Shown here: positions 1,846 to 7,709 of the stretch, piece by piece
Numbering within the stretch: position 1 is the first letter of the stretch
Layout: the number at the start of each line of letters is the position of its first letter
Assembly: GCA_002189035.1 (NCBI GenBank)
Contig: NEEC01000011.1
Span: 2,604,001-2,668,000 of the forward strand
Direction of reading: 5' to 3'
Length of the DNA: 64,000 nucleotides
Source of the DNA: Utricularia gibba
Taxonomy: Eukaryota; Streptophyta; Magnoliopsida; Lamiales; Lentibulariaceae
The notes under the pieces: model-generated
The model's input: the letters and a program-made list of their open reading frames with translations, nothing else
Told to the model about the DNA's origin: nothing
Database searches by the model: none
Translations under genes and position numbers: made by a program

Positions 1846-2581
1846 GTTGATCTGGAAAAGTAATTAACAATGAATATTTTATCATAACATACAGAAAACA
1901 GCTCGTGTTGTACAAAAATGCAATTCCACAGGAAGTGATGCATAAAACATAACTCAGCCACAACAAGTGATCCTGAGAAAACTCATGAACAAGAACGCAT
2001 AAAACTTACGGTAAACAACCAGATGATGCATGCGAAATCATAATTTCGTATGTCGGAAACTAAGTCGAGAAAAAGAAAACCCAATCAATCAACCGTAAAA
2101 TCACTCCACAGGAAAGACAGAATATCAGAAACTAGTGATTTGGACTCATGAGCTCACCCGCGCCAGTGAATCAGCGAAGTGTTCCCGCCATCAGCAGCAC
2201 ATGTTTTTGATCAATCGCGATGACGCTTTGCGCGAAATACGATTACAGATTTGTATATGGAAAGCTATTTCCATGATTAGAGAGGGAAGACTTGAAAATG
2301 ATGTTCGTTGCTTTAAAATTGGGCCTAGGCCCATTTTCAGTAACGGCTCAAGTATTATAATTGAAGCCCAAGCCCCAAATGTTTCTTGTGGGAAGGGCTA
2401 CATGTTCCATATTCATTCACGTTTCACACAAAAACAAAGGTGCATAGATTTTCTCTTGATTTCTCGCAGAAAGTATGGAGATGAAGGTGAGTTTCACATT
2501 CCATTTCGGAAACAAGAGTGCTCATGGAGTGATTCAAGGTGTTTTGAAGTGTTTTTTTTTTTTTTTCCGGTGGAATATTGG
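1846..2581. promoter_or_regulatory. Divergent spacer between PP2C and PBG1
   Basis: About 0.7 kb between two outward-reading starts, so it must hold both promoters and 5' UTRs. It contains a GGGCC-type stretch near 2320-2335 and a run of T at about 2549-2566 just ahead of the PBG1 start. The long open frame on the plus strand here is continuous with PBG1 exon 1 but has no family similarity upstream of 2582, so I treat it as UTR. Confidence 0.5.
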
Positions 2582-4023
2582 ATGTTAAAGTCGGCAGATT
2601 CAGTTTTGGGGATGCGTAATTTGCTGGGTCCTGATGCTGATTCTCAGAGAACACTGTAAGTTTTCATTCTCAAGTCAAATTCAAGACATGACTATCTGGA
2701 GTTCTCAGACAAAAATCTACCCTAAACGGGTTCGGCGTTCTAATATGATTGAGTATTGCCAAATGGAAAACAATTGTGTCTTTTGCTATCTACACAGGGT
2801 TCCTTACGTGACTGGAACATCTGTTGTTGGCATCAAGTATAAAGATGGAATTCTCCTAGCGGCCGACATGGGAGGTTTGATATTCGTCTAACTCGTTTTG
2901 GACTTAACTTGGAGTTGCAGTTGAAAATTTTCTTTCTCTGAATGCTGGTTTGTGTAGTTGTATTTGGTCTGCTTATGGTTAGTTATCCTTATTTTTGAGC
3001 TGGATTTTTTTAAGAACTTTTTCCTTACCCGATCTTTTTACCTAGTTTGAAGAGGAGTGGTGGGTGCTTCAGCTAAACCATATATTTTGTGGGATCTGTG
3101 TATAATGATTCCTTTCAATAGGTTCATATGGGTCTACTCTCCGCTACAAATCCGTGGAACGATTGAAGTCAGTGGGAAAGCATTCGATCATTGGTGCAAG
3201 TGGGGAGATCAGTGACTTTCAGGAGATAATGAGATATCTCGATGAGCTCATGTACTTGAACATTGGCGGGCATTCTGCTATAATTTCTTTCGTTTCATCT
3301 GTTATAGAAATGTCATACGTCCTATTTTATGCAGAATTTATGATAACATGTGGGATGATGACAACTCCTTGGGTCCTAAGGAGGTGCATAACTATCTGAC
3401 TCGGGTCATGTACAACCGTCGCAATAAGTTCAATCCCTTGTGGAACTCCCTCGTGATAGGAGGAGTTAAAAATGGGCAGAAGTATCTTGGAACGGTATTT
3501 TTTTTTTCGTTTCTGTATCACGAGCAGCCTTAGCCAATTCTCTGTATTTTCTTAATCCATTCTTTGTGCAACCTTAGGTTAACATGATCGGTGTGCATTA
3601 TGAAGACGCCCATGTGGCCACTGGATTTGGAAATCACTTAGCACGACCAATTTTACGTGATGAGTGGCATGAAAACTTGACTTTTGAGGAAGGTGTAAAA
3701 TTACTAGAGAAGTGCATGCGTGTGCTGCTGTATCGTGATAGATCAGCAGTCAACAAACTGCAGGTTTGTAGCATCCGCTACAGATGTTTTTTATCACTGT
3801 TTTCTGACACCATACATTGCCTTTATAATGCTGCTGCTTCAGATCCATGCATGAATTGGTTCAATGTTACGGGTATTTGATGCATGAATGTCTTCTCTTA
3901 TGCACTCAGATTGCCAAGATAACAGAGGAAGGCGCCACAATTTTTCAACCATACTCACTGAAGACTTTCTGGGGCTTTGCTGCTTTTCAGAACCCTACCG
4001 TGGGTGCCGAGGGCTCATGGTGA
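2582..4023 (+). CDS. PBG1: 20S proteasome subunit beta type-4 (PBG1)
   Basis: Non-catalytic beta subunit of the 20S core proteasome (nucleus and cytosol), predicted 246 aa, the same length as Arabidopsis PBG1. Exons: 2582-2655, 2798-2874, 3122-3251, 3335-3494, 3578-3763, 3910-4023, all GT-AG and in phase. Conserved blocks: YVTGTSVVGIKYKDG, AADMGGSYGSTLRY, GASGEISDFQE, NMWDDDNSLGPKE, NYLTRVMYNRRNKF, GFGNHLARPILRDEWH, and the C-terminal NPTVGAEGSW. I chose the ATG at 2582 because it gives the family's N-terminal length; an in-frame ATG at 2612 is the alternative. It is convergent with the RING gene downstream. Confidence 0.96.
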
Positions 4024-4340
4024 TTATTCCAGTGACTGGAATAGTGTTGTTCCAGGTCCATGTTATTTCTTTGTGCTCTTCTGAATTTTACTGTACGAAG
4101 GCTCTGTGGCTTCTTGCTGGTCCCTTCCACCAGTTAGCAAAATGAAGAATCATAGCCTTTTTATTGATGCGCTGAGCAAGACATTAATTTCTCACTAAAT
4201 GCTAAAGAGTGTGTTTTAGATTCTCAGCCTGCAACTATTTGATGTGAAATCTATCTCATTTCCACAAAAAAATGATATCTCATGAGAAAGACATGTTTTG
4301 CGTTGAATCTACTGAAAAAATGGAATTACGAAAGGCAACA
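4024..4340. other. Convergent 3' spacer, PBG1 / RING gene
   Basis: Short AT-rich stretch that should hold both 3' UTRs. I see no further gene or repeat in it. Confidence 0.5.
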
Positions 4341-7300
4341 TCAAGGAGGCTGATTCTCACCAAGTGCACAAGCAAGACAAGGAGGATTTTTCGCTTGATC
4401 GTCCGGAGTGATTTTCTGCAAACAAACGTCATGAAATGTGTGGTGGCAAGGTAGAATAGCAACCTGTGGTGGAACTTCGGGAATAGAAACAGGGCCTTGA
4501 GGGCTGAAGGAGAGATCCCTGTGGCACAAGTAGCATTTGTATCCGCTGAGCTTAGGTGGGCTATCAGGAGCTACAAAATTAATAAATTATATGACCATTA
4601 CATTAATTTGATAGAGTAAATTGTGTATTTCAAAGTTGGCATACCACGCGGAATCTTGTGTACACGTGAAGGTTTGGAAGATTGGATGGGAGCTTTGGAT
4701 GACTTCTGAGACCCTTCATGGATTCGCAGCGGTTGAAATTTATAGTGGATCTGCTTATCTGTTGTCCTCCTAATCTTTGACAGGTTTACACGAGGATTTT
4801 CTATTACTGGTCTCTTCATTGATAGATTGCCTGAACTCAGCTCTTGACTTCTTGTTAGAGGCACTGTTGCTGTAAGATGTGAACAAAAAAAAAAGGCCTT
4901 GAAGAACTGGATATGAAAAAGAAAAGATATGGACAAGTTTACCACTAGAGAAGCAGCCTGTCATCAGATTAGACTGAGAATTTTTAGCAGAACGAACTTG
5001 CTGGTATGGAGCTGGCATCAGCAAGGTACCTCTAGGATAGCTTACGCCTAGAACTTCTGTTGCTGGTCTCTGCATCGATGGATTGCTTGAACTAGGCTCT
5101 TGATTTCTTGTTATAGGCACCGTTGCTGTGTGAGGAAAAAAAAGGCCTTGATAAAGAACTGGATATGAAAAAGAAAAGAAATGGACAAGTTACCTCTAGA
5201 GAAACCTATCATCCGATTAGCCTGAGAATTTTGAGCAAGACTAACTTGCTGGTGTGGAGGTGCCATCAACAAGGTACCTCTAGGATAGTTTACGTCTAGA
5301 ATTTCTGTTTCTGGTCTCTTCATTGATGGATTGTCCGAACTAGGATCTTGATTTCTTGTTAGAGGCGCGGTTGCTGTAAGACGTGAGCAAAAAAAAAAAA
5401 GGGCCTTGAAGAAGAACTGGATATGAAAAGGCAAAGATATGGGCAAGTTACCTCTAGAGAAGCCTATCATCAGATTAGCCTGAGAATTTTGAGCAGGACT
5501 AATTTGCCTGTATGGAGCTGGCATCAGCAAGGTACCTCTAGGATAGTTTACTTCTTGATTATCTTGTAATTGCCGATCCCGTGAAACTGGGTGGCGTGGA
5601 GCTGCGGCTGGTAAGTTTAACTGCTGAATGTCCTGAGAATGTTGAACTCGCGCAGGTTGCATGTGTAGAGCTTTGATCAGAAACAATAATGGATTAGGAA
5701 GTCTCTACAAAAAATTGATAATCTTATAGAGAAACTACAGGATGTCTAGAAAAAATGTCTAGGAAATGCGTTCTTATGGAATTGAAAGACTGGAGATTTC
5801 TGCTGTAGAGCTACGATGTTAAAAAAAAAAAAAAATCAATCAACACTCCGCTACAAAGCCAAAGGTAATTATATCATCAAAATATCTAGCAGCTTGCGGA
5901 ACAAATTGGAGTCAAATGAGACCTCTTGCAATACGAGAGGGATCATAAAAATTCTGCACAAGTGTCGGCCTTGCAGGGAATTGAGCAGGTGAAACACACC
6001 AACGAGGAGCTACAAGCCAAAAGCAGATTCATTAGAACATCTAAAAAAAGAAAAATACTTACTGGTAACTGTCCAAACAGAATGTCATCAGGCAGCTTAG
6101 GAGAATGTCACAATGAGAAATATCTACAGAACGCAACAACCACGACATCCGGAAGTGAAGCAATGATTAGAAGTTCGTTCTACTAGAGCTTCTCTAGAGA
6201 TAAAAATGTCAGGCAGCCTGCGCACGTTTAGGATGAAATGCAGACCTATATTCGTTTCCATTGCCATCCTCGGTAAAAATGGATGGTTTCGGCTTGGAAC
6301 TATCACCAAAAAAAATGTATTAGAACTTCTTGAGATAGACAAAAGGTTGATATGCACATACAATACAAGGAAACCTGCCAAGTGAAGGATAAAGAAACAG
6401 ACGTCTTGCAAGATGAGAGGCATCAGGTGTAGCATGTTCAATTCTAGGCCTTGCAATAACTAGATCCGACGAACGAAGCCGATTTTGAGCTACTGGGATA
6501 AAAGCACATTATCTTAGACAATCCAGAGAGAAGAATATTGATTGGTAAACAAATAAAAACAATGTAGCAGTCTGCTTGCGCACTTTATGTTATATCATAA
6601 GCAGTGAGCTTATTTCGAATAAGTCGATCAAACAAGAACTTAGCTATAACAACCAAAAAGAAACATGAAACAAGGCAAAGGCATAAGCTTAATTATGTTA
6701 ACAAGAAATCGTAAAAGCATACTCACACCTATTGTAGGTTGGGAATTATCCATTACAATCGGTTGAACTCCTGGCAAGGGTTGGCCTGGAAAAACATGAT
6801 AATTTTGGGAACTTTGACTACGTGAAAAGTGACGTCCGTGTCTCAAAGGAGCAAAGCTGTAGATGGGATTTCCAACTACATTGTCAATGTACGGTGTAGT
6901 CAAACTCCCTAAAAAATATAAACCTCATTAATAAAGCAATAATTTTCGTAAAGGCAAATTCTGTGCTATTTGAGCCGCTAGTCTATTTAAGGTAACCGAA
7001 GAAAGATCATCATGATAGCTTCTGCTCCCATTACAACTTGATCATTCCTTTCACCTTCTAGACTGGGAATTTTCTAGACTGAAGTGTATGTAGCAATATT
7101 CAAAAGGATCGTTCCGAACAGGCCCAAATACCACTATAAATTGAAAAGAAGAGGCCTACAGTGCATCACCTTCTTCGGCATTGTTGATGCACCTTCCTTC
7201 ATGGCCTATGAGAATGTTGTGGGGTCGTCCTCTCCAGTCACTGCCACGGCATGGCCATGGTTGGTTTGTTAAATTTGTAGATACAGGTACCCCTGATGCC

Positions 7301-7709
7301 TTTACAGAGTGTGCAAGAAATTAAAACAACATGTCATTTTACCTATGAATAGAAAAATATGATAACCAAATTGCATAGCGTGCTTATCAACCTGAGATCC
7401 GTTAACAACGTCACTTCTTCCAGGGTCTCGAGAAGGTGTTCCGGTGTCCAACTGATAAGGACTTTCAACTCCAACAAGAAAGTTAGGAAGGTGGCTTTGG
7501 ACATCATTCATCTTTACAGATGTCTCACGCAAAAAGTTGCCTTGTTGCCAATCCATGTCCATATGATGCTGCGAACAATTAGCATTATCCTGCAGAACTC
7601 GCCAAGGGATAAAATCAGCTCCGGAACTACCACCACCTTCGCCCATGTTCTCATCATGAACCTCATCCACTGGTGGAAAACTCAAATCAAATGGAAGCCT
7701 ATCTCCCAT
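4341..7709 (-). CDS. RING-finger protein with tandemly duplicated internal exons
   Basis: Predicted 611 aa in ten exons: 7367-7709 (donor could be 7343), 6729-6908, 6375-6489, 6226-6299, 5923-6009, 5452-5670, 5194-5373, 4943-5125, 4645-4869, 4341-4570. The C-terminal exon carries a RING of C3H2C3 spacing: CYLC, then LPCHHTFHDVC, then CLAC, suggesting E3 ubiquitin ligase activity. The rest is polar and low in recognisable domains. Four consecutive exons (5452-5670 to 4645-4869) share the core NYPRGTLLMPAPYQQ...AQNSQANLMIGFSRG or its N-terminal part, are bounded by phase-1 introns, and even share intron sequence. The start at 7709 opens MGDRLPFDLSFPPVDEVHDE. The RING call is firm; the substrate and orthologue are unknown. 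Exons 3-5 are the least certain. Confidence 0.8.
4645..5670 (-). repeat. Tandem exon-intron duplication, about 4 units of 250-300 bp
   Basis: Unit starts on the minus strand are at 5670, 5373, 5125 and 4869, giving periods of 297, 248 and 256 bp. Both exon and intron parts repeat: the exons keep CCTAGAGGTACCTTG and TTCTCTAGAGG-like ends. The introns keep a stretch like the gtaacttgtcc start plus a poly-T/TTTTTTTCCT acceptor. All exons are symmetrical (phase 1-1), so each copy preserves the frame. Confidence 0.88.

Follow-up and report, generated by a model that had tools for sequence, protein, structure and literature searches.

Evidence for tandem duplication of an exon-intron unit upstream of the RING domain in a gene of Utricularia gibba

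Introduction

How can a gene be lengthened from within without loss of either its reading frame or its splice sites? The question is raised by a predicted RING gene in Utricularia gibba, in which a stretch of exons and introns just upstream of the RING is repeated. The gene lies on the minus strand of a 64,000-nucleotide stretch of contig NEEC01000011.1 (positions 2,604,001 to 2,668,000; GenBank assembly GCA_002189035.1), here called the window, and all coordinates below are those of the window (Table 1). A preliminary description of the sequence proposed that the gene has grown by repeated exon-intron duplication, and that the number of repeats may vary. No report of exon duplication in this RING gene was found in the literature that we searched.

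We prefer the view that the array is the product of an ordinary internal tandem exon duplication, passively tolerated, that lengthened a P/S/Q/N-rich and probably disordered region preceding the RING. We give this reading a probability of about 0.8. Below we describe the gene, the anatomy of the array and a route by which it could have formed, and then weigh the alternatives against the divergence of the copies.

Table 1. Features of the RING gene and its tandem array (window coordinates).
Feature	Position	Strand	Description
Whole gene model	4341..7709	(-)	11 coding exons, 631 codons, ATG at 7709, TGA ending ~4341
E1	7709-7392	(-)	gene model
E2	7299-7170	(-)	gene model
E3	6908-6729	(-)	gene model
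E4	6492-6403	(-)	gene model
E5	6299-6246	(-)	gene model
E6	6009-5923	(-)	gene model
E7, 219 nt	5452..5670	(-)	unique 5′ half, repeated 3′ half (VNYPRGTLLMPAPYRQISPAQNSQANLMIGFSR)
Tandem array, three units	4790..5551	(-)	starts 5551, 5293, 5045; last unit ends before 4789
Intron 7, 78 nt	5374..5451	(-)	repeated intron, copy 1
E8, 180 nt, 60-aa cassette	5194..5373	(-)	full hybrid copy
Intron 8, 68 nt	5126..5193	(-)	repeated intron, copy 2
E9, 183 nt, 61-aa cassette	4943..5125	(-)	full hybrid copy, one in-frame 3-nt insertion
Intron 9, 73 nt	4870..4942	(-)	repeated intron, copy 3
E10, 225 nt	4645..4869	(-)	repeated 5′ half, unique 3′ half
E11, C-terminal RING-H2-like domain and stop	4341..4570	(-)	Pfam, ligand pattern, PDB matches

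The RING gene and its product

Every intron of the gene model has GT-AG borders; nine are phase 1, and only the first is phase 0. The modeled spliced frame is free of stops over its 631 codons, and a stop-free coding sequence was obtained in 0 of 2000 shuffles, a figure that flatters the model because the exons were picked by eye for frame. The order GC1>GC2>GC3 holds across all coding blocks, the repeat exons included. The donors of E4, E5, and E6 (C/GTCTG, G/GTCTG, and G/GTCTC, respectively, the slash marking the exon end) are weaker than the other donors, and this stretch is therefore the least certain part of the model; the repeat is unaffected.

A separate observation concerns E4 and E6, whose 3′-ends and donors are similar (window 6400-6430 and 5920-5950, minus strand). 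The two sequences, TGATGCCTCTCATCTTGCAAGAC/GTCT in E4 and TGATCCCTCTCGTATTGCAAGAG/GTCT in E6, agree at 22-23 of 27 bases (nucleotide p = 0.001, protein p = 0.015, both uncorrected). This likeness may reflect an older exon duplication within the RING gene.

The ligand pattern C-x2-C-x20-C-x-H-x2-H-x2-C-x12-C-x2-C is found in E11 (residues 568-623), with all eight metal ligands present in RING-H2 order and spacing. Pfam zf-C3HC4 scores 22.9 bits on this exon (cut-off 21), and the top PDB matches of the RING region, which are weak, are RING E3 ligases (RNF126, Arkadia). The gene product is probably a RING protein of the ubiquitin-ligase type, and E3 activity would be expected of it. The fold of the RING exon predicted from the single sequence had a pLDDT of 50, a confidence too low for use.

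The pieces of the long N-terminal part that were tested, exon 1 and the cassette, matched no Pfam family. In the cassette region, P, S, Q, and N together make up 39% of the residues and disorder-promoting residues are abundant, a composition that points to a region that is probably disordered. No further copies of exon 1 or of the cassette were found in the 100.09-Mb assembly (516 contigs), and other RING hits in the genome have 35-39% identity, confined to the RING. The possibility of paralogs or homoeologs in the genome was rejected on these grounds; the RING gene is single-copy.

Anatomy of the array

The array adjoins the RING exon on its upstream side. Each of its units begins midway through an exon, takes in the whole of a 68-78-nt intron, and stops midway through the exon that follows. 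Compared in register, the units are 258, 248, and 256 bp long, a range of 248-258 bp that replaces the period of 250-300 bp first proposed. Their pairwise identities (86.7, 86.9, and 85.3%) span exon halves and intron alike. TRF places the array at 4798-5555 (period 248, 3.0 copies) with a score of 1046, which no other repeat in the window approaches, and a separate repeat-finding run, independent of TRF, also picks it up. The proposal that the gene has grown as a unit of exon, intron, and exon was duplicated in tandem is borne out by this identity of 85-87% between units.

The breakpoints of the array fall within exons, beside a short GTAAAC common to E7 and E10, and these two exons therefore share only one half each. 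The preliminary description had four exons and their introns as mutual copies. Shared sequence is indeed present in all of E7-E10, but E7 and E10 are half-copies and the array has three units. Its outer limits, 4645 and 5670, were correctly drawn, being the exact outer ends of E10 and E7. The three units amount to two whole added cassettes, E8 (60 codons) and E9 (61 codons), in agreement with the frame-neutral cassettes of ~60 residues that had been noted upstream of the RING.

The borders of E7-E10 were set by splice-site consensus. So defined, all four exons are phase 1-1 with lengths divisible by 3, and the three introns between them are all phase 1, as had been claimed. GT-AG introns occupy homologous positions in every copy, and adjacent copies are alike in exon and intron at those positions. 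From these features of the DNA, tandem exon-intron duplication is well supported, and E7-E10 would be spliced as modeled. It may be added that intron 7 (5374-5451, minus strand) has a length, 78 nt, that is a multiple of three, and is stop-free in frame; its retention would therefore preserve the protein frame.

How the array may have arisen

The ancestral segment would have consisted of the 3′ half of E7, a short phase 1 intron, and the 5′ half of E10. Illegitimate or unequal recombination could have rejoined the E10 half to the E7 half within coding sequence. With the junction beside a shared stretch of 4-6 bp, the outcome would be a hybrid exon, its acceptor coming from one parent and its donor from the other. 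The ~250-bp unit would then have been duplicated a second time, yielding another hybrid exon. Each added exon would insert ~60 residues, with the frame unchanged and the splice sites retained, because the added exons are multiples of three and are bounded by phase 1 introns. The likeliest effect would be to lengthen a flexible spacer that sets the RING apart from the N-terminal region, a change passively tolerated, and the added cassettes would be neutral in effect.

The hybrid exons carry traces that bear on this scheme. In both E8 and E9, the left part resembles E10 and the right part E7, the change-over coming immediately before GTAAAC, a position consistent with a junction at short homology. 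Just to the left of the junction, E8 and E9 have in common a TTCTAG that is absent from both parent exons, which suggests that the hybrid existed before the second copying. The order of the duplication events given above would follow from this shared motif. The singleton sites (12, 17, and 17 per unit) make the three units nearly equidistant, and distances alone therefore give no order of events. It is only from the half-repeat anatomy that we infer an ancestral state with one unit.

Divergence among the copies and alternative readings

The copies differ at 13-15% of their sites, with no near-identical pair; divergence between copies is 8-16% in introns and 10-21% in exons. The pooled pN/pS between copies is ~1.08, from pairs that are not independent, and no third-position excess was seen among the inter-copy differences. 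As pN/pS is ~1 and exons have diverged much like introns, no amino-acid constraint is visible between the cassettes, and such constraint would appear to be weak. A ratio of ~1 would equally fit untranslated segments. Indels are distributed differently: one, of 3 nt and in frame, per ~540 exon bases vs. ~4 per ~219 intron bases. The contrast (Fisher p = 0.027; p = 0.12 without T-tract indels) is a hint of constraint on the frame. That all frames are open, as was first remarked, is true but weak evidence of selection, since one cassette has a 43-72% probability of staying stop-free after 10-26 random substitutions. Selection on the cassettes was considered and rejected, given the pN/pS of ~1.08, the lack of third-position bias, and too few sites.

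Tandem exon duplication has been linked to mutually exclusive splicing, and is often the source of mutually exclusive exons (PMC6071210). The RING-gene array resembles such clusters in that its neighboring exons are homologous, symmetric, and of nearly the same length, and their introns are alike, and the skipping of phase 1-1 homologous exons preserves the frame. We nevertheless think it unlikely that isoform diversity is served here by alternative use of E8 and E9, whether through skipping or through mutual exclusion. The splice sites are similar and of consensus type in all copies, and the pN/pS of ~1 gives no sign that distinct functions are maintained. Also, the region differs from mutually exclusive exon clusters in showing no excess RNA structure: its overall folding, as distinct from specific docker-selector pairing, is no better than that of shuffled sequences (z = +0.94; 84 of 100 shuffles fold equally well). 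On the evidence of overall folding, mutually exclusive splicing via RNA structure was set aside.

Distinctly less probable is an array that is still changing by unequal crossing over, so that alleles would differ in cassette number. Unequal crossing over can act on tandem units of ~250 bp that have introns in common, and the cassettes are frame-neutral. Recent turnover would, however, leave a near-identical pair, whereas divergence is 13-15% in every pair and the units are nearly equidistant; the comparison covers a single locus in a single assembly. The variable repeat number suggested by the preliminary description was not supported, as neither near-identical units nor a second locus in the genome was found. 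Nothing suggests current copy-number change, and we claim no recent growth of the array.

We consider it slightly more improbable still that the segments are not exons but a diverged intronic tandem repeat in the RING gene, with frames open by chance. The exon calls rest on consensus, the inter-copy differences lack third-position bias, and an open frame in a single cassette is not improbable. On the other hand, the frame of all 11 exons contains no stop and keeps its phase throughout the array, GT-AG consensus is found at every border, and GC content by codon position is coding-like.

It is very doubtful that positive selection is diversifying the cassettes in the way reported for duplicated exons in grass CENP-C. 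In some pairs pN does exceed pS; in the E7-E9 3′ halves the values are 0.126 and 0.021, which, coming from only 10 differences, would indicate the direction of diversifying selection and only the direction. Against this, the pooled pN/pS is 1.08, with very small numbers and non-independent pairs, and the introns have diverged at about the rate of the exons. Least probable of all is that cassettes both alternatively included and diversifying under selection would make of one RING gene a set of ligases with differing substrate-reaching or docking segments.

Relation to known systems

Taken as an ordinary tandem exon duplication, the RING-gene array is another case of the kind known from CENP-C, with breakpoints within exons. 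The CENP-C gene of grasses has undergone recurrent tandem duplication of an exon pair (PMC549713). In both genes, exons and introns are duplicated in tandem and in frame, in two or three copies. In both, the duplication lies in a middle region of low conservation, next to a C-terminal domain that is conserved, and purifying selection between copies is weak or absent. The RING gene differs in that the breakpoints lie inside exons, making the unit half exon-intron-half exon, and in that a RING protein is encoded.

With plant RING-H2 proteins, the predicted product shares the C-terminal arrangement C-x2-C ... C-x-H-x2-H-x2-C ... C-x2-C and a zf-C3HC4 match above the Pfam cut-off. It would differ from them in coming from a single-copy gene and in its long N-terminal part, the tested pieces of which belong to no Pfam family.

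Gene growth through tandem exon duplication is a well-known route, and the RING gene illustrates a known process. The example is clean, in that symmetric phase 1 exons permit lengthening even when the breakpoints are within exons. Such breakpoints are tolerated because each parent exon supplies a hybrid exon with one splice site. On present evidence, the array poses no new question.

Neighborhood of the gene

On the plus strand, a convergent gene (window 2475-4024) resembles that of a 20S proteasome beta subunit; its end and the RING-gene stop are ~320 bp apart. At 545-589 in the window, TRF also finds a 22-bp tandem repeat in two perfect copies (ACCAAGAATATATCCTTCACTG).
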